Positions 17,963 through 35,745 of a DNA stretch of 35,745 nt are shown here, in pieces. The DNA is from a virus. The stretch spans positions 1 to 35,745 of IMG/VR virus record IMGVR_UViG_3300046412_000165; one strand, 5' to 3'. The position numbers and the translations under genes are program-made. How positions within the stretch are numbered: position 1 is the first letter of the stretch; the number at the start of each line of letters is the position of its first letter. Below the pieces are notes generated by a model. It searched no databases and had not been told where the DNA came from. It saw nothing but the letters and a program-made list of their open reading frames with translations.

Positions 17963-18517
17963 ATGACTAAAAGAAAAGACCCTAAAAAGGCAGAACACTA
18001 TGTTAATAACAAAGAGTTCACTCAAGCAGTTGCCGAGTATAACGAAGCAGTAAAACTCGCCAAGGAGAAGGATAAAACACCTCCTCAAATGTCAAACTAC
18101 ATAGGGGAGTGTATCTATAAGATTGCAACTCGTCTATCTACTAGACCAAACTTTATTAATTATACTTACAGAGACGAAATGATCTGTGATGCAATTGAAA
18201 ATTGTATACAGTATATTAATAACTTCAACAGAGAAAAGTCCAACAACGCATTCGCATATGTAACACAGATTTGTTATTATGCATTTCTTAGAAGAATCCA
18301 AAAGGAGAAAAAGCAAGTCTTTATCAAACAACAGATAACAAATGAGACGGGTATTTCTGAGGCGGCATTTGATACAATTGATGGTGATACGTCTGGACTA
18401 ATAAACACAAATGTTGAATGGATGCAAGAGAACATGAAAGTTGTCGAGTATTCACCAAGAAAGTCAAAGAGAGCAAAGAAAACTACAAAGAAAAATTTAG
18501 ACAACTTTACTGAATGA
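17963..18517 (+). CDS. 55: Late-transcription sigma factor gp55-like
   Basis: 184 residues against 185 in T4. Starts MTKRKDPKKAEHYVNNKEFT; the core YIGECIYKIATRLSTRPNFI, then YRDEMICDAIENCIQYINNF and NAFAYVTQICYYAFLRRIQK, is the gp55 equivalent of sigma region 2, which reads the TATAAATA late promoter. The basic C-terminal KSKRAKKTTKKNLDN would include the sliding-clamp-binding tail. Presence of gp55 and gp45 agrees with the late-promoter motifs in this window. The last four bases overlap gp47 (ATGA). Confidence 0.94.
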   Translation: MTKRKDPKKAEHYVNNKEFTQAVAEYNEAVKLAKEKDKTPPQMSNYIGECIYKIATRLSTRPNFINYTYRDEMICDAIENCIQYINNFNREKSNNAFAYVTQICYYAFLRRIQKEKKQVFIKQQITNETGISEAAFDTIDGDTSGLINTNVEWMQENMKVVEYSPRKSKRAKKTTKKNLDNFTE

Positions 18518-23084: not shown

Positions 23085-23114
23085 TTGACAGTAACCCCTA
23101 CTTTTTTATATACT
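23085..23114 (+). promoter_or_regulatory. Sigma70-type early promoter 2
   Basis: TTGACA (23085-23090), 18-base spacer ending CTACTTTTTTA, and TATACT (23109-23114). The expected start is about 23121, the A of the CobT-like ATG. It is nearly identical to promoter 1, including AACC/GACC just ahead of the -35. Confidence 0.88.
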
Positions 23115-23120
23115 AATCCT

Positions 23121-25511
23121 ATGACTGAGAAACTTAAAAATCAAAAATCAACTCTTGCGAAACTGATGGCGTCAGAAGACATCACAGTTCTTCACAAGAA
23201 AATACCAACTGCATACTTTGATGTAAAGAACAGGATACTTGCTTGTCCTACTTTCAAAGATGATATTTCACCAGAACTTTATGACTTGTTTATGGGTCAC
23301 GAAGTTGGTCATGCATTGAATACACCTTTCGAAGGGTTACATTCTACTCTTAAAGAGAATAGAACTCTCAAGGGTTATCTCAATGTTGTAGAAGATGTCA
23401 GAATTGAAAGAAAGATTAAAGACAAGTTTGCTGGACTTAGAAAGTCTTTTTATGCCGCATACAATGAATTGATGCAGAGAGACTTCTTTGGAATCAAAGA
23501 TAGAAATCTTCAAGAACTTTCATTGATTGACAAGATCAATTTGATCACCAAGTGTGGTTCAAGAGTTTCAATTACACTGACCGATGAAGAGCAGGTGTTC
23601 TTAGATGCTTCACTTAAGTGTGAGACATGGGAAGATGTTGTTCAAGTTGCTACAGCAATCTATGAGTGGTCAAAAGAAAACGAAACAAGAGACGAATCAG
23701 ACCAAGCAATCACTTATCAGTATTCAGATATCGAAGATATCGACGAAGATGAGGACGATTTCGAAGAAGATTATGAAGATGATTTTGGTTCTGATGGCGA
23801 AGAGTCAGACGTAGAGCAAGAGAACTCAGAGCAAGAAGACTCTCTCCCAGACGTTCCTACGGGTACTGGAGACGTTCCAGCGGGTGCTTCTGAAGAGACT
23901 GAAGACGATGTATCAGAGTCAGAAGAGCAGATTAAACAGACTGGTGGCAAGTTCGGTGGTACTTCTTACGGAATGCATGACGATGAAAATGGTGCTAGAG
24001 AATCATTGACTGAACATTTTGCTCACAATAATGAAGACCAGTTCATAGATGAGAATGCTTGTATCAAAACTAGCATCGATCTTAAAAAGAACTGGAAGAA
24101 CATAGATGATATGTACTACTCTTACACTGAGGTGTTCAACGACTTCGATCAAATGATGGTGATCACTGATGCCGACAAAGCAGATAATTGGAAGTTAAAA
24201 AGAAAACAAGAGTCAATGCAATTTATACCTCTTGCTGGACCTGGTACTAGAAAATATCTACAAGACAAAAACAAAAGTATTGTTGCCCACATGGCAAAAG
24301 AGTTTGAAATGAGACAGACTGCCATGAGATCAGCAAAAGCATTCACTGGTAAAAGTGGTCAACTTGATATGAATAGACTTGCAAAGTATCAGATCATTGA
24401 AGATGTATTCAAGAGAGTTACTTATTTACCAGACGGAAAGAATCACGGTGTTAACGTGTTACTTGACTGGTCAGGTTCTATCTCTCATGAGATTAAAGAC
24501 TTGATCGAGCAAACTTTCATCTTATCAGAATTCTGTAACAAAGTTCAGATTCCTTTCAGAATCTTCTTGTTCTCAGATTCAATTATGAGAGGTGAAGATT
24601 ACTGGTCAAGTGGTGAGGGCAAACTTGTAGAACTTCTTTCAAACGAAATGAGTGGTAAAAAGTACACTAAGGGTTTGAATATTCTTTCTCAAATGTACAT
24701 GCACTTCTGGAAATCTGAAATACTTCAAGGTTGGGAACCTGCTGATTCAGAAGATGTTGAATTATTAAATTCAATATTCAACCTTGACCCAGAAGATGCC
24801 TCATATTATGATAAGAGAAATGATCTTAATTATTGTGACTTGGTCCCAAACAACTTCAGACTTGGCGGGACACCTCTTAATCACTGTTTACTAGCAATGA
24901 GAAAGTGGATCCCAGAGTTCAACAGAATGTACGGAATTGAAAAGTCAATCATGACAATTATCACTGATGGTTTCAGTCATGAATCAGACTTGCTCAGACA
25001 GTCCGACGAAGAGTTTGCAGATGCTAAGTCTCAGATGGGTAGTGACTGGATCGGCAGATCAAACATGAAAAGATACTTGATTGATCCTTACACTAACAAG
25101 ACGTATCTTTACCATGAACCAAGTGACTACAACTATGGTGACTGGAACAGAACTGCTAATCTACTTGAGTGGATATCAGAAACTTGTAACGTTACAATCA
25201 CTGGTTACTTTGTCTTCAGTAAGAAGAAAGATTTTTCAACTACTACCCACTACATGCCTGGCATTTCTTGGGAAGAGAAAGATGAAATCTGGAAAGCAAT
25301 GAGAAAGACTGGTTACGTTTTCAAAACTAAAGGTTACAACAAGTTATTCTTTACTTACAAAAATAACTTAACTGCATCAAGTGATACTGAATTGTCAGAC
25401 GACTTGGTCGATGCTAAGAAGTCTAGGTTGACTTCAGCATTTAAAAAGAATCAGAAGTCTAAAGTAACATCTAGATTTCTAACAACTGAGTTCATAAAGG
25501 AGATAGCATAA
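23121..25511 (+). CDS. cobT: CobT-like VWA protein with HEVGH metallopeptidase-like domain
   Basis: 796 residues from ATG 23121; the longer TTG frame begins on a promoter -35 and is rejected. The N-terminal domain has HEVGH at 60-64 and VVEDVRIE at 89-96, the HExxH...E pattern of gluzincin-like metallopeptidases. A very acidic linker (about 206-285) follows. The C-terminal VWA domain has MIDAS DWSGS at 449-453 and IITDG near 616. It resembles CobT, the VWA partner of the CobS AAA+ ATPase in cobaltochelatase, and such phage genes are usually labelled so. No chelatase CobN subunit is seen, so a cobalamin role is unproven; protein remodelling or proteolysis with the CobS-like ATPase is a fair alternative. 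Confidence 0.85.
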   Translation: MTEKLKNQKSTLAKLMASEDITVLHKKIPTAYFDVKNRILACPTFKDDISPELYDLFMGHEVGHALNTPFEGLHSTLKENRTLKGYLNVVEDVRIERKIKDKFAGLRKSFYAAYNELMQRDFFGIKDRNLQELSLIDKINLITKCGSRVSITLTDEEQVFLDASLKCETWEDVVQVATAIYEWSKENETRDESDQAITYQYSDIEDIDEDEDDFEEDYEDDFGSDGEESDVEQENSEQEDSLPDVPTGTGDVPAGASEETEDDVSESEEQIKQTGGKFGGTSYGMHDDENGARESLTEHFAHNNEDQFIDENACIKTSIDLKKNWKNIDDMYYSYTEVFNDFDQMMVITDADKADNWKLKRKQESMQFIPLAGPGTRKYLQDKNKSIVAHMAKEFEMRQTAMRSAKAFTGKSGQLDMNRLAKYQIIEDVFKRVTYLPDGKNHGVNVLLDWSGSISHEIKDLIEQTFILSEFCNKVQIPFRIFLFSDSIMRGEDYWSSGEGKLVELLSNEMSGKKYTKGLNILSQMYMHFWKSEILQGWEPADSEDVELLNSIFNLDPEDASYYDKRNDLNYCDLVPNNFRLGGTPLNHCLLAMRKWIPEFNRMYGIEKSIMTIITDGFSHESDLLRQSDEEFADAKSQMGSDWIGRSNMKRYLIDPYTNKTYLYHEPSDYNYGDWNRTANLLEWISETCNVTITGYFVFSKKKDFSTTTHYMPGISWEEKDEIWKAMRKTGYVFKTKGYNKLFFTYKNNLTASSDTELSDDLVDAKKSRLTSAFKKNQKSKVTSRFLTTEFIKEIA

Positions 25512-30904: not shown

Positions 30905-31111
30905 ATGTTTCAAGGTATTATAGATTTTGTTATGGGTATATGGAACTTACTTATGATAGTTCCAGTTATTATATCAATATGCTCAGTAGTTGTAGCATTA
31001 ACACCGACCCCGGCCGATGATAAGTTGTGGGCAAAAGTGTATAAGTGGTTAGAAGTTCTTGCTTTAGCAGTAGGTAAAGCAAAAGACAAAAACCCTCTTT
31101 TAGATAAGTAA
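30905..31111 (+). CDS. 68-residue membrane protein, holin-like size
   Basis: MFQGIIDFVMGIWNLLMIVP and VIISICSVVVALTPTP form a long hydrophobic segment of one or two spans, followed by a soluble ADDKLWAKVYKWLEVLALAV GKAKDKNPLLDK-like amphipathic tail. AGGAGG lies seven bases before the ATG, a very strong site. The TPTPADD...WAKVYK pattern recurs, as I recall, in small proteins of many marine phages, of unknown role; holin or membrane-stress functions are guesses. It is the first gene after regA. Confidence 0.75.
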   Translation: MFQGIIDFVMGIWNLLMIVPVIISICSVVVALTPTPADDKLWAKVYKWLEVLALAVGKAKDKNPLLDK

Positions 31112-31158: not shown

Positions 31159-31443
31159 ATGGAATATGTGATAATTGGTATAATTGTTATACTAGCAGTT
31201 GTCTTCTATGTTAGAGGCGATAGTGGCAGTAGTTCTACTACAGTTACAAAACCTGTCTCTAAACCTGCAGTAAGACCAGTTGTAAATGCAGATGCAAACA
31301 ACAATGGTATTACAAGCAAGGCAGAACTTAAGAAATTAACTAAAGTTCAACTTGTGGATCTTGCAGAGAAGAAGAGTCTGAAAGTTAAGAAGTCTGGCAC
31401 TAAAGCAGAGATTATTAACTCCATTCATACTCAATTGAAGTAA
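31159..31443 (+). CDS. Membrane-anchored protein with SAP/HeH-like DNA-binding motif
   Basis: 94 residues: an N-terminal membrane helix YVIIGIIVILAVVFYVRGD, a Ser/Thr/Pro/Lys-rich linker, and a C-terminal LTKVQLVDLAEKKSLKVKKS followed by GTKAEIINSI. The last 40 residues match the helix-extension-helix (SAP/HeH/LEM/Rho-N) pattern, often used to bind nucleic acid. An N-terminally anchored version would hold DNA or RNA near the inner membrane. AGGAG lies eight bases ahead of the ATG. A strong terminator follows its stop. Confidence 0.7.
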   Translation: MEYVIIGIIVILAVVFYVRGDSGSSSTTVTKPVSKPAVRPVVNADANNNGITSKAELKKLTKVQLVDLAEKKSLKVKKSGTKAEIINSIHTQLK

Positions 31444-31462: not shown

Positions 31463-31488
31463 AAGGGTGCTTCGGCACCCTTTTTTTT
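31463..31488 (+). terminator. Intrinsic terminator with TTCG loop
   Basis: AAGGGTGC, TTCG tetraloop and GCACCCTT followed by a run of T to 31488. It separates the regA-downstream genes from the curli-like operon. Confidence 0.95.
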
Positions 31489-31508: not shown

Positions 31509-31516
31509 TATAAATA
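31509..31516 (+). promoter_or_regulatory. Late promoter of the curli-like operon
   Basis: An exact TATAAATA, 21 bases after the terminator's T-run. The predicted start, 31522, is two bases before the first ATG (31524), so the first message may be almost leaderless. It places the curli-like genes under gp55 control. Confidence 0.7.
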
Positions 31517-31523
31517 ATAGGTG

Positions 31524-31820
31524 ATGGAAGATATACTATTATTAATCAATGAAGTCGGTGTCCCGATTGCAAGTGCAATCGTAATGGCATTCTTTATCTT
31601 CCTAACACTTAGATACATCTTAGAGGGTGTATCAGATGATGTGAAGACTTTAACTGGCATGGTTGACATGCTAGAAGACAGATGTAGAGTTATGAATAAC
31701 GAGATCGTTAAGATTGATTTGCTTATATCTCAATCCTTAGAACTACAACCAGACCTTGATCGAGTCGCCAGAGCAGAGAACTTCGTGGAAGATGGAAGTA
31801 TTGATGCTAGGAGAGATTAA
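31524..31820 (+). CDS. Small holin-like membrane protein, paralogue A
   Basis: 98 residues from ATG 31524 (a GTG lies one codon earlier). MEDILLLINEVGVPIASAIV and MAFFIFLTLRYILEGV form one membrane helix; the rest is a charged coiled-coil-like helix (DDVKTLTGMVDMLEDRCRVM). Topology and the NEVGVPI motif recall the YvrJ/BhlA small holin-like families, with the short end outside. It matches the next gene in layout and in the [ND]E[VF]G[VY]P motif, so they are likely a duplicated pair. It is the first gene of the curli-like operon. The stop overlaps the next ATG by one base. Confidence 0.75.
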   Translation: MEDILLLINEVGVPIASAIVMAFFIFLTLRYILEGVSDDVKTLTGMVDMLEDRCRVMNNEIVKIDLLISQSLELQPDLDRVARAENFVEDGSIDARRD

Positions 31821-32110
31821 TGGTCGAAGAAGTAATCAAGGTTGTAGACGAATTTGGATACCCAGTCGTCATGTCATTGGGAATGGGTTACTTCATTTAC
31901 TTCATATGGAAATATGTAACTGAAGAACTAGAACCCAGAATAGAGAAACAAAAGATATCTCTAATTAGATTGATCGATCAAATGAGAATGTTAGATCAGG
32001 ATCAAATTAGACTTCAGCAAAAACTGAATACTGTATTAGAGTACAGAAAAGCAGAACGTTTAAGGAAGAAACTACGTAATGAAAAACCAGATAAAGTTAT
32101 TAAGTCTTAG
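31820..32110 (+). CDS. Small holin-like membrane protein, paralogue B
   Basis: 96 residues: MVEEVIKVVDEFGYPVVMSL, then GMGYFIYFIWKYVTEEL as one membrane helix, then a long basic/acidic coiled coil (QMRMLDQDQIRLQQKLNTVL) ending in a Lys/Arg-rich tail. It shares with paralogue A the DEFGYP-type turn, the aromatic membrane helix and the helix length. Two such proteins could form a heteromeric channel, a lysis pair or a platform for the export machine coded downstream. Overlaps the csgF-like gene by 32 bases. Confidence 0.75.
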   Translation: MVEEVIKVVDEFGYPVVMSLGMGYFIYFIWKYVTEELEPRIEKQKISLIRLIDQMRMLDQDQIRLQQKLNTVLEYRKAERLRKKLRNEKPDKVIKS

Positions 32111-32573
32111 TTTATTAATATCAATGCCGATCATGGCAGATGAAATCAAATTTGGTTTCAAAAATCCCTCATTCAGTGGACAGGGTACAGGTGCCCATTA
32201 CTTAACCATTGAGAACCAAGAGACATCAAGAAAGAAAGCAATCGAAGAAGCACTCGAATCAGCAAGAAAGGCCGCTGAACGTGAAGCAGAGAATAGTACC
32301 CTTGCAAAATTTATTAGGAACTTAGAATCAAGAATCTATGCCCAATTTGCAAAGCAGTTAGTAGAGAGTATGTTCTCAAACGATAATCCTGCGGGATTTG
32401 GATCGTTCATGCTTGAAGGTAATAGTATTACATGGGAAGTAATTACAAATGCCGATGGTGCAGAAGTTATAAGATTAACAATTGTAGGTGAAGACGGAAC
32501 AGAAACAGTAGTTGAGATCCCAGTTGGCACTGGTAACTTCGGTCAAGATCCAGATACAGGTTCAGGAGGATAA
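32079..32573 (+). CDS. csgF: CsgF-like curli assembly factor
   Basis: 164 residues (E. coli CsgF is 138). Signal peptide MKNQIKLLSLSLLISMPIMA, then mature DEIKFGFKNPSFSGQGTGAH and YLTIENQETSRKKAI, which match the CsgF start (F-x-F-x-NP-x-F-GG) that binds inside the CsgG pore. A basic/acidic helix (ALESARKAAEREAENSTLAK) and a beta-rich C-terminus (ITWEVITNADGAEVIRLTIV) follow, ending in GTGNFGQDPDTGSGG. In curli it tethers the nucleator to the pore. Directly upstream of csgG. AAGGA precedes the ATG. Confidence 0.85.
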   Translation: MKNQIKLLSLSLLISMPIMADEIKFGFKNPSFSGQGTGAHYLTIENQETSRKKAIEEALESARKAAEREAENSTLAKFIRNLESRIYAQFAKQLVESMFSNDNPAGFGSFMLEGNSITWEVITNADGAEVIRLTIVGEDGTETVVEIPVGTGNFGQDPDTGSGG

Positions 32574-32574
32574 A

Positions 32575-33486
32575 ATGTTACGAACACTCTTAGCATTAAC
32601 ATTGCTATTGTCAGGTTGTGCTTCGGTTCCTAAATGGAGTGAAGACCCTGCAGATTGTTCATATGAAACAGGTAAGTTTGATGAAGGTTGGGGCAAAGAT
32701 GTTTACACAGGTGTTAGAAAGTATGCAGGTTCTAAATTTATTTGTGTAGAGAGTCCAGAAGTTGTAAAGTTACCTGCATATATTGACTTACTTAATTTAC
32801 CACCTGCTGAAGAAATGCCAATAGTTTCAGTATATAATTTTAATGACAAAACAGGTCAGAGAAAATCAGTTACAAACATAGCATCTTTCTCGACAGCAGT
32901 AACACAAGGTGGTGTAGAGATGTTAATCGATGCACTTAAGACTGCTGGTGGGGGAACATGGTTTAGAGTCGTTGAAAGAAACGGCATCGATGCATTACTA
33001 AGAGAAAGACAGATCATTAGAAGTGCAAGACAAGATTACGCAAAAATTTCGGGGGAAGAACCCCAAGGTTTACAACCACTACTATTTGCAGGAATGCTAA
33101 TTGAAGGTGGTATAATTGGTTATGATTCTAATATATTAACGGGTGGACGAGGCGCACGGACACTTGGTATTGGATATGCGAAACAATATCGACAAGATGT
33201 TGTTACAATCTCCATAAGGGCAGTTAGTGTTCTTACTGGAGAAGTTTTATTAAATGTACAAACTCGGAAAACGATTTTAAGTTATGGTTCATCGGGAGAT
33301 ATTTTTAGATTTATCGAACAAGGAACACAATTAATTGAGTTTGAAGACGGTGTGGGTAATAATGAGTCAGTGACGTATGCAGTACGTGTTGCCATTGAGG
33401 CAGGTGTACTGGAATTAATCTACCAAGGCCATGAACGTGGTTATTGGAAAATAGAAGGGTATAACGAAAATGAAAAAACTAAGTAG
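32575..33486 (+). CDS. csgG: CsgG-like outer-membrane secretion pore lipoprotein
   Basis: 303 residues from ATG 32575 (E. coli CsgG is 277). Lipobox LSGC at residues 13-16 in MLRTLLALTLLLSGCASVPK. Family core: LPAYIDLLNLPPAEEMPIVS, VYNFNDKTGQRKS, STAVTQGGVEMLIDALK, WFRVVERNGIDALLRERQII, AGMLIEGGIIGYDSNILTGG and TISIRAVSVLTGEVLLNVQT. CsgG forms the nonameric pore that exports curlin. The order AYIDLLNLPP...VYDFxDxTGQ is diagnostic. The longer start at 32512 lies inside csgF. It overlaps the curlin-like gene by 17 bases. Confidence 0.95.
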   Translation: MLRTLLALTLLLSGCASVPKWSEDPADCSYETGKFDEGWGKDVYTGVRKYAGSKFICVESPEVVKLPAYIDLLNLPPAEEMPIVSVYNFNDKTGQRKSVTNIASFSTAVTQGGVEMLIDALKTAGGGTWFRVVERNGIDALLRERQIIRSARQDYAKISGEEPQGLQPLLFAGMLIEGGIIGYDSNILTGGRGARTLGIGYAKQYRQDVVTISIRAVSVLTGEVLLNVQTRKTILSYGSSGDIFRFIEQGTQLIEFEDGVGNNESVTYAVRVAIEAGVLELIYQGHERGYWKIEGYNENEKTK

Positions 33487-34207
33487 TATATTATTACTGA
33501 TGTCGACAACTTTTGTTTTCGCACAATCCACTGATGATAACGAAATAAAAATCACCCAAACCGGTGATACTCTAAAACTTTATATCGACCAAATAGGATT
33601 TGGTAACAAAGTTGGAGGTTCTAATGGAAACGACGGGTCATTGACAACAATGGCAATTACTGGTGCAACATTAGACTTCAACATCGATATGTTAGGAGAC
33701 CAAAACAAATTGTTTGGACCTGTAGAAGCAGATAGTTCTAACTATCTCATTGATATTACAGGTGATCAAAACAGTATTGATTGGAACATTGGTTATACAG
33801 GTTCATCAGATGATTCGGATATTAATTTCGATATCACAGGAGATAGCAACACATTTGATTTAGATCAAGGATATGTTGCAAGTGCTGAAAGACTAGACGC
33901 CGACCTTATATTAATAGGTAGTTCGAATATTTTTGATATTGACTGGGAATCAGACGATTTAACATGGAACTTAGATATAACTGGTGGTTCAAACAATATT
34001 AATACATTGCAAAACGATGGTGAGCAAACATTAGACTTCACCTTAGATGGAGATAGTGCAGACGTGGATATCAATCAGATATCTGGTTCATGTGCAACAG
34101 GTGCCCCACAGGCATGTGTTACACCGAATGCAACTATTATTCTTGACGTAACAAGTGATAATGCAATTATTCAACTTACACAAAAAGATTCGTCTAACGA
34201 TTCTTAA
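33470..34207 (+). CDS. Secreted curlin-like repeat protein (candidate amyloid substrate)
   Basis: 245 residues. Signal peptide 1-18 (MKKLSSILLLMSTTFVFA). The mature start has DDNEIKITQTGDTLKLYIDQ and IGFGNKVGG, much like curlin repeats (x-Q-x-G-x-x-N-x). Repeats with the pattern ITGDxN follow near residues 76, 98, 124, 150, 172 and 194, a period of 22-26 as in beta-solenoid curlins. Very acidic, rich in Asp/Asn/Gly/Ser, with only two Cys (208, 216). The gene follows csgF and csgG. I infer a CsgA/CsgB-type substrate of the pore; similarity to known curlins cannot be measured here. Confidence 0.8.
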   Translation: MKKLSSILLLMSTTFVFAQSTDDNEIKITQTGDTLKLYIDQIGFGNKVGGSNGNDGSLTTMAITGATLDFNIDMLGDQNKLFGPVEADSSNYLIDITGDQNSIDWNIGYTGSSDDSDINFDITGDSNTFDLDQGYVASAERLDADLILIGSSNIFDIDWESDDLTWNLDITGGSNNINTLQNDGEQTLDFTLDGDSADVDINQISGSCATGAPQACVTPNATIILDVTSDNAIIQLTQKDSSNDS

Positions 34208-35303
34208 TTTAATTTTCCTCAGCGGGTTTGCTTTTGCTGAACCCGTTGGGGAGATTTCTGAGTCTACAGGACTCGGATCAATTCTTAGAAATTCAGAAGA
34301 AGTTGGCAATCAGGTCAACACAGAAATCATATTAAAAGACGAAGCATCGACAGGTAATGGTCGAATGAAGATCGTATTCCTTGATGAAGAGGTCCTAGAT
34401 ATGACTGAAAATACATATGCATATATCGACGAAGCATATTATGATCCTAATCCAGATCTATCTCAAATGTCAATTAGAGTTGCAAGAGGTACAGCAAGAT
34501 TCACATCTGGTAAAGGTAAAAAAATTAAAAAAGCAAACGTAAATGTAGGTACACCTACAGCACAGATCACAATCAAGGGAACAGATTTCACTACAACCGT
34601 AGATGAGATAGGGAGAACTCTTGTCATATTACTCCCAGATGAAACAGGCGAACAATCATCTGGTGAGATAACAGTTTTAAATGAGGGTGGTGAAGTAACT
34701 CTCACTCAGGCATATGAAGCAACTATGGTTTCAACATGGGAAACACCACCAACTCAAAGTGTTACACTCAATGGTGTGACACCCAATATAATCGATAACA
34801 TGTTTATCGTCAATCCACCTCAAGAAGTGCAAGACAGAGTGGCAGAAGAGGCACAAAATGACCTTGATCAGGATCAAGGAATATTAGATGTAGACTTCTT
34901 AGAGTTCAATGAACTAGAACAAGATGCTCTCGCAGACACTACAGAAGACCTAGAGTTTTCTGAACTTGACATAGACATGCTAGATGTAGATTTCTTAACC
35001 GACTTATTAGATGTCGTAGAAGAATTAGAGAGAACAACAGTAGTATTTGGAGATGCACAGAAAGTATCTGCAGGTGACTTTTCACTTAAGGGTGCTAATA
35101 TAGGATTCAACAAAGACTCTCAGTTTAACGTGTTCGTACAAGATGGCGACTTATACTTCTATAGAAATGTCAATGGCACAATCGAAGTTATCATTGCACA
35201 AGGGGGAAGTGGATTCTTAGACGTGGGCGTAGAAGGATATCAAGGTATTATTGAATTCGGTGATGGTAACGGAATCGAAATTGTTATAAGACAAACTAAC
35301 TAA
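34161..35303 (+). CDS. Secreted FecR-domain protein
   Basis: 380 residues from ATG 34161 (GTG 34155 also possible). Signal peptide of about 26 residues ending LSGFAFA. A FecR-type domain at about 30-135: GSILRNSEEVGNQVNTEIIL, then GRMKIVFLDEEVLDMTENTY, ISIRVARGTARF-like SIRVARGTARFTSGK, and VNVGTPTAQITIKGTDF. The middle is acidic with two LDVDFL-like repeats; the end is beta-rich (GDLYFYRNVNGTIEVIIAQG). FecR domains are usually in sigma-regulator or cell-surface proteins; here it is exported and embedded in the curli-like operon, so it may bind or shape the fibre or wall. Overlaps the curlin-like gene by 47 bases. Confidence 0.8.
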   Translation: MQLFNLHKKIRLTILNLIFLSGFAFAEPVGEISESTGLGSILRNSEEVGNQVNTEIILKDEASTGNGRMKIVFLDEEVLDMTENTYAYIDEAYYDPNPDLSQMSIRVARGTARFTSGKGKKIKKANVNVGTPTAQITIKGTDFTTTVDEIGRTLVILLPDETGEQSSGEITVLNEGGEVTLTQAYEATMVSTWETPPTQSVTLNGVTPNIIDNMFIVNPPQEVQDRVAEEAQNDLDQDQGILDVDFLEFNELEQDALADTTEDLEFSELDIDMLDVDFLTDLLDVVEELERTTVVFGDAQKVSAGDFSLKGANIGFNKDSQFNVFVQDGDLYFYRNVNGTIEVIIAQGGSGFLDVGVEGYQGIIEFGDGNGIEIVIRQTN

Positions 35304-35306
35304 ATA
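35299..35306 (+). promoter_or_regulatory. Late-promoter-like ACTAAATA before second curlin pair
   Basis: The fourth copy of ACTAAATA; it contains the FecR gene's stop codon and lies 19 bases before an ATG with AGGAGG. Confidence 0.45.
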
Positions 35307-35325
35307 GTACTAGGAGGCAACTTTT

Positions 35326-35472
35326 ATGGATAGACTTAAATCTTTCATAAAGTGGCATGAGAGACAAACTGAATTCTTTACATATGAACTAGGTTTGTCA
35401 CAATATCAAACCATGTGGATAGCATGGACAAAAGGTATATTAACAGTATTAATATTACAATGGATATTTTAA
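35326..35472 (+). CDS. 48-residue protein with C-terminal membrane helix
   Basis: MDRLKSFIKWHERQTEFFTY then ELGLSQYQTMWIAWTKGILT and VLILQWIF. The last 20 residues form a Trp-rich hydrophobic helix, so the protein probably sits in the inner membrane with its N-terminus in the cytoplasm. AGGAGG, eight bases ahead of the ATG, is a strong site. Its end overlaps the next curlin-like start by 13 bases, so the two are coupled. It may be a chaperone, anchor or lysis factor for that pair; there is no direct evidence. Confidence 0.65.
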   Translation: MDRLKSFIKWHERQTEFFTYELGLSQYQTMWIAWTKGILTVLILQWIF

Positions 35473-35745
35473 AGAAAATATTATTAACAATCATAGGGAT
35501 ATCAATTATCCCTATGACCTTATGGGCAGATGATAACGAGATATCACTTACACAAAGTGGTAATAACTTTTCATTAGAAATCAAACAAGTGGGATTCAAC
35601 AATAAAGTAGGTATGTTAGATTCACAATCATATATCAACAATGCACCAGATTTAGATATACATATCGTTCAATACAACTTTACTGCTAATCAAAATCAGA
35701 TTATCTTTGATGAAGTATCAGGTTCAAGTAATGAATTTAGACTAG
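35460..35745 (+). CDS. Second curlin-like secreted protein (3' cut by window)
   Basis: The first 95 codons of an open frame that runs off the window. Signal peptide MDILKKILLTIIGISIIPMT with LWA, then DDNEISLTQSGNNFSLEIKQ and VGFNNKVG, closely parallel to the start of the curlin-like protein at 33470 (DDNEIKITQTG, QIGFGNKVG). Later residues show Asn/Gln/Gly-rich repeats with QYNFTANQNQIIF and GSSNEFRL. A paralogue, perhaps a nucleator to the other's subunit, as CsgB is to CsgA. The full length and repeat count cannot be seen. Confidence 0.75.
   Translation, partial: MDILKKILLTIIGISIIPMTLWADDNEISLTQSGNNFSLEIKQVGFNNKVGMLDSQSYINNAPDLDIHIVQYNFTANQNQIIFDEVSGSSNEFRL

Follow-up and report, generated by a model that had tools for sequence, protein, structure and literature searches.

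Gene content of the curli-type locus

The window analysed here, IMGVR_UViG_3300046412_000165, is a linear stretch of 35,745 bases that represents the entire IMG/VR contig and ends at position 35745. It is assigned to a T4-like myovirus because PHROG matches were found for a terminase, a tail sheath, a scaffold, SbcCD-like subunits, a sliding clamp (gp45-like, 3e-71), clamp loaders, a RegA-type repressor and a gp55-like late sigma factor (17963..18517, + strand; PHROG 234, late sigma transcription factor, 7.3e-59). The top-ranked relative of its clamp-loader gene is Pelagibacter phage Mosig (62%). An 808-aa protein encoded in the replication region (23085-25511) matches PHROG 459 (peptidase, 2e-152). 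Two small genes (30905-31111 and 31159-31443) separate the RegA-type repressor from the curli module and recur jointly in about 22 related loci; one encodes a hydrophobic 68-aa protein (PHROG 9685/402) and the other a membrane-anchored protein whose tail is weakly SAP-like.

The upstream unit is ended by an intrinsic terminator hairpin (31463..31488; AAGGGUGC-UUCG-GCACCCUU and then a U run; -16 kcal/mol, z -2.9), followed by an exact match to the T4-type late promoter TATAAATA (31509..31516) and by the module itself, all on the + strand. The first gene codes for TMa, a small membrane/coiled-coil protein (31521..31820, with a conserved start ATG at 31524; PHROG 18771, 2.6e-24), and the second for its paralogue TMb (31820..32110; PHROG 18771, 1.6e-24), which among 50,697 phage records is present only in isolates with csgG. 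Products of this kind have been labelled HK, for histidine kinase (PMC9599517). None of the 18 TM proteins matched any kinase model in Pfam, neither a histidine kinase dimerisation domain nor an ATPase domain was found, and the kinase identity was rejected; weak single matches (YvrJ, Rhabdo_M1, CASP_C) were taken as chance. The HK label of the first genes of the module therefore appears doubtful.

The CsgF-like protein (32079..32573) carries a signal peptide and an N-terminal NPSFSG motif, and matches PF10614 (3.1e-12; 47 bits against a cut-off of 25.8) over nearly the full model length. The CsgG-like outer-membrane pore (32575..33486; PF03783, 1.1e-51) is a lipoprotein with an LSGC lipobox, and matches solved E. 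coli CsgG structures (6e-49) over about 230 aligned residues including the FSTAV region. The CsgF pore-binding motif NPxFxG is kept in 58 of 59 distinct phage CsgF proteins and the CsgG lipobox in 59 of 64 phage sequences, as would be expected if the export machine works. An extra N-terminal segment of CsgG (32617-32746) contains two cysteines conserved in 56 of 58 distinct sequences and is absent from Pelagibacter phage HTVC008M and Methylophilales phage Melnitz. In addition, OR851715.1, an unannotated record of 1,499 bp under the name Salmonella phage S.Kent 1-2-1, encodes a CsgG with 44% identity to the query; this record may be a piece of bacterial DNA deposited as phage. A search for CsgE, the periplasmic gate of type VIII systems, gave nothing above the family cut-off, either in the window or in nine further phage records with curli genes (two isolates and seven IMG/VR contigs of 106-154 kb); CsgE has been described as not essential for curli (PMC7029224).

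Two secreted proteins with curlin repeats, candidate subunits of a type VIII system, are encoded, CurA being recognized above the family cut-off and CurB through its family profile. CurA (33470..34207) has degenerate repeats and matches Curlin_rpt (PF07012, 5.4e-5; 23.5 bits against a cut-off of 20.7), as do 23 of 24 members of its family. The pattern G..N occurs in it eight times, against 2.1 expected from shuffling, mostly at intervals of 22-27 residues. CurB (35463..35745) is present only as its 5' part since the record ends, and this truncated ORF taken alone falls under the PF07012 cut-off (2.2e-3). It is complete in a near-identical phage, L004, which shares CsgG and FecR with the window at 100% identity and was used for this purpose; 22 of 32 CurB family members match Curlin_rpt at E up to 0.1, and the family profile matches the solved curlins 8enq (1.8e-5) and 8c50 (5e-4). 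No solved curlin was matched by the CurA profile. The two proteins could instead be monomeric beta-solenoid adhesins or decoys exported via CsgG, and not amyloid subunits. In agreement with this, the length of CurA is nearly fixed (246 +/- 6 aa) with two cysteines in 51 of 51 sequences, and the AlphaFold models of both proteins show, outside their signal peptides, an all-beta structure at moderate confidence (mean pLDDT 76-78), with no Foldseek match to the PDB at E <= 0.001. The match of the CurB profile to solved CsgA structures and the presence of Curlin_rpt in most family members argue in the other direction, and we consider an adhesin or decoy quite unlikely. CurB itself varies in length (254 +/- 39 aa) through its repeat region and has a cysteine pair near its end in 43 of 43 sequences.

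Between the curlin-like genes lie a gene for a secreted FecR-domain protein (34161..35303; PF04773, 1e-8; PHROG 37870, 9.9e-57), with a signal peptide judged by eye, and a gene for a lineage-specific 48-aa protein, p48 (35326..35472), which has a C-terminal hydrophobic segment; about 20 of 84 loci have p48 in this place, after FecR and before CurB. In the window and the two isolates, the annotated neighbours of FecR are curlin, p48 and cyclase genes, and no sigma-factor or receptor gene adjoins it. The arrangement of a FecIRA-type iron regulator, with FecI and FecA adjacent, is thus not seen here. These data bear on the suggestion (PMC7029224, PMC9599517) that through CsgG a nutrient-limited host takes large nutrients or siderophores into its periplasm, to which the name FecR, taken from the iron-citrate regulator, would lend itself. 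An iron role follows here from the name alone, given the signal peptide of the protein and the many large proteins among its alphaproteobacterial relatives; under late expression there would also be little time to profit, and CsgF and the curlins would be left unexplained. Uptake is thus a very improbable function.

An earlier note, made from the DNA letters alone, had recognized CsgF-like and CsgG-like genes, two signal-peptide proteins with curlin-like repeats, a secreted FecR-domain protein and small membrane proteins beside them, and no CsgE; the genes that it names lie at the positions given there, and the family and profile searches confirm its observation.

Gene order in relatives and relation to described modules

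The survey of neighbouring genes proposed in the earlier note revealed an unbroken order TM-TM-CsgF-CsgG-CurA-FecR-CurB-AC in about 230 viral loci, wherever the flanks sufficed. With the optional p48 between FecR and CurB, the same order ending in a cyclase holds in the set found through csgG (80 IMG/VR loci, HTVC008M, Melnitz and the window), again where flanks suffice. Because this first set had been chosen via csgG, independent searches were performed with TMa and FecR. Among loci with enough flank, CsgF is next to the TM genes in 65 of 65 found by TMa, and those found by FecR have CsgG upstream (69/69), CurB (62/62) and the cyclase (41/41), the linkage being tested within one lineage only since what was retrieved in this way is closely related to the window. 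The cyclase gene lies beyond the record of the window and is known from relatives only; its catalytic motifs are intact in the phage copies.

Modules of this kind have been described previously. Indeed, csgF and csgG were reported in pelagimyophages together with a curli-associated gene in 2020 (PMC7029224) and in Melnitz in 2022 (PMC9004378), as the earlier note had mentioned for related marine phages, and the full module HK-CsgF-CsgG-CsgA/B-FecR-CsgA/B-AC, with one or more HK small proteins and without CsgE, was described in pelagiphages in 2022 and detected at all 65 GOV2.0 stations (PMC9599517). The order in the window fits this module up to CurB. The window differs by the extra 48-aa gene, by its own late promoter after a terminator, by the two-cysteine CsgG extension that it shares with most relatives and by the lack of kinase homology in the genes called HK. 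In HTVC008M (NC_020484, gp011-gp019) the order is TM-TM-CsgF-CsgG-curlin-FecR-curlin-cyclase and CsgG is 46% identical in the alignment, whereas the second curlin has 441 aa, the CsgG lacks the cysteine extension and TATAAATA was not found ahead of the first TM gene. Melnitz (MZ577097, gp97-gp104) has the identical order and a late-type box ahead of its first TM gene; according to its paper, csgA/B are missing and the proposed function is that of a pinholin or secretin (PMC9004378), whereas its GenBank entry annotates two curlin-repeat proteins. The GenBank entries of both isolates already annotate most genes of the module. Compared with csgBAC-csgDEFG of E. coli, CsgG and CsgF are homologous, but the phages have no detected CsgE and have FecR and a cyclase linked instead.

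A bacterial counterpart was found in the metagenome-assembled genome Hyphomonas sp. TMED17 (L091), where a 705-kb chromosomal contig with ordinary bacterial neighbours encodes csgF-csgG-curlin-FecR-CHASE2/cyclase in the identical order. Unlike the phages, it has a single long curlin-like ORF of 504 aa, which the phage curlin profile matches and Pfam does not, and it lacks the TM pair. FecR and the cyclase were described as not found inside bacterial T8SS operons (PMC9599517), and in family and class searches the pair was absent from 20 other csgG loci. The combination of csgG, FecR and cyclase is rare; it is not restricted to phages, given the Hyphomonas locus. In the CsgG tree, L091 falls in one clade with the phages (100/98), and since a single phage group without L091 is left undecided (AU p 0.44), no direction of transfer is claimed. 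Seven further loci from metagenome-assembled genomes (L084-L090), binned as Synechococcus, Sphingobacteriales, Flavobacteriales, Rhodobacteraceae, Planctomycetaceae and Saprospirales, were not counted as bacterial: the phage module, TM pair included, is present in them, and they are probably misbinned phage contigs. In an alphaproteobacterial genome (L219), a large FecR-domain protein adjoins a divergently oriented CHASE2-type cyclase, so FecR and CHASE2 cyclases may form a pair on their own.

The locus is therefore a real and strictly conserved phage curli-type module of an already described kind. The earlier reading, in which a late promoter precedes a curli-type export operon of the phage and its linked candidate substrates, is supported; the novelty claimed for the linked substrates, FecR and membrane genes does not, the order having been published (PMC9599517) and most genes annotated in GenBank. 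The comparison adds several points that were not found in PMC7029224, PMC9004378 or PMC9599517, namely the late promoter of the module, the endolysin neighbourhood in relatives, the bacterial FecR/cyclase counterpart and, casting doubt on the kinase label, flanking small membrane proteins without histidine-kinase homology.

Late promoter and lysozyme neighbourhood

Within the window alone, the TATAAATA 8-mer is not more frequent than expected by chance (5 found, 3.3 expected; 20 of 100 shuffles had as many). Support for a promoter ahead of the module comes from comparison: in 71 of 131 distinct loci the 8-mer precedes the first gene by no more than 100 bp, whereas only 2.2% of random windows contain it, and it occupies the equivalent place in 34 of 59 distinct related loci of a smaller set. 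Late-promoter prediction had failed in pelagimyophages (PMC7029224). The elements of a T4-type late transcription unit, i.e. the TATAAATA promoter and phage gp55-like and gp45-like genes, are all encoded in the window, the gp55-like factor being the expected reader of such promoters. At 31509-31524, the box stops seven bases short of the conserved TMa ATG. In many relatives it begins exactly 13 bases before this ATG, a distance which, with the promoter spacing of T4, suggests that the TMa message is leaderless or nearly so.

A T4-type lysozyme (PF00959) is encoded at most 2 kb upstream of the TM pair in 37 of 131 distinct loci, which are related and hence do not represent independent events; the bins 3-6 kb upstream contained none, and neither did the 7 kb that begin at the TM start. 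Six near-complete phage records each have a sole lysozyme above the cut-off, on the strand of the module and 0.4-7.2 kb from it; three of these genes lie upstream (0.4-0.8 kb) and three downstream (3.9-7.2 kb). Together, the promoter and the lysozyme neighbourhood suggest that the module acts at the end of infection.

The same data could be read as those of a pore that sets the time of lysis, CsgG and CsgF being repurposed as a gated channel or a pinholin-like device, as proposed for Melnitz, that would depolarise or permeabilise the envelope when lysis is due. The late promoter, the clustering of lysozyme genes close upstream and never across the module, their position in the six near-complete records and the absence of CsgE, which would leave the pore ungated, are all compatible with such a role. 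It would nevertheless leave unexplained why FecR, CsgF and two secreted proteins of curlin type are so strictly retained; furthermore, the CsgG lipobox leads one to expect an outer-membrane location, whereas holins act in the inner membrane, and the window, although a fragment, contains no lysozyme. We regard a lysis-timing pore as unlikely.

Probable export of curlin-like proteins late in infection

On balance, the locus is probably a type VIII-like (curli-type) secretion module with which a marine T4-like phage exports two curlin-like proteins late in infection. We infer that the lipoprotein pore CsgG would form an outer-membrane channel with CsgF, through which CurA and CurB, once secreted by the Sec pathway, would be exported. 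CurB, with its variable repeat region, would be the likely main polymer subunit, and CurA, of constant length and with degenerate repeats, the likely nucleator or anchor. The secreted FecR and the CHASE2 adenylyl cyclase located downstream in relatives could act as an envelope sensing pair inherited with the module. The product would most likely be a curli-like polymer, or patches of it, on the infected cell shortly before lysis, and as candidate benefits the polymer may bind debris, progeny and neighbouring cells to one another or keep rival phages out. Exclusion, aggregation and a role at release have already been proposed as functions (PMC7029224, PMC9004378, PMC9599517).

Export of curlin-like subunits is supported by the domain matches, the CurB profile against solved curlins, the unbroken order, the kept motifs, the late promoter with gp55, the intact cyclase motifs and the like core order in a bacterial chromosome contig. 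Against it stand the absence of CsgE, the degenerate repeats of CurA, the lack of a solved curlin among its profile matches and of a significant Foldseek match, the location of the cyclase outside the record, and the facts that no fibre has been seen and that no clumping was observed in Melnitz cultures (PMC9004378).

More tentatively, the module could be part of a late egress programme, a possibility that we put well short of even: read by the late sigma factor, it would lay a phage-made amyloid round the cell at lysis, while the FecR/CHASE2-cyclase pair would report the state of the envelope by cAMP, the endolysin gene being adjacent in many relatives. If this were true, a virus would build and regulate its own extracellular amyloid at release.

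Since the late promoter and the lysozyme linkage indicate the end of infection, the published ideas on the module (nutrient uptake, sibling capture, exclusion, lysis timing) can be told apart experimentally. Phages with the module are widely distributed in the ocean, and SAR11 and OM43, their known hosts, are reported to be without curli. If the proteins form fibres, some of the ocean's most abundant cells would acquire through infection a surface amyloid that is otherwise beyond them.
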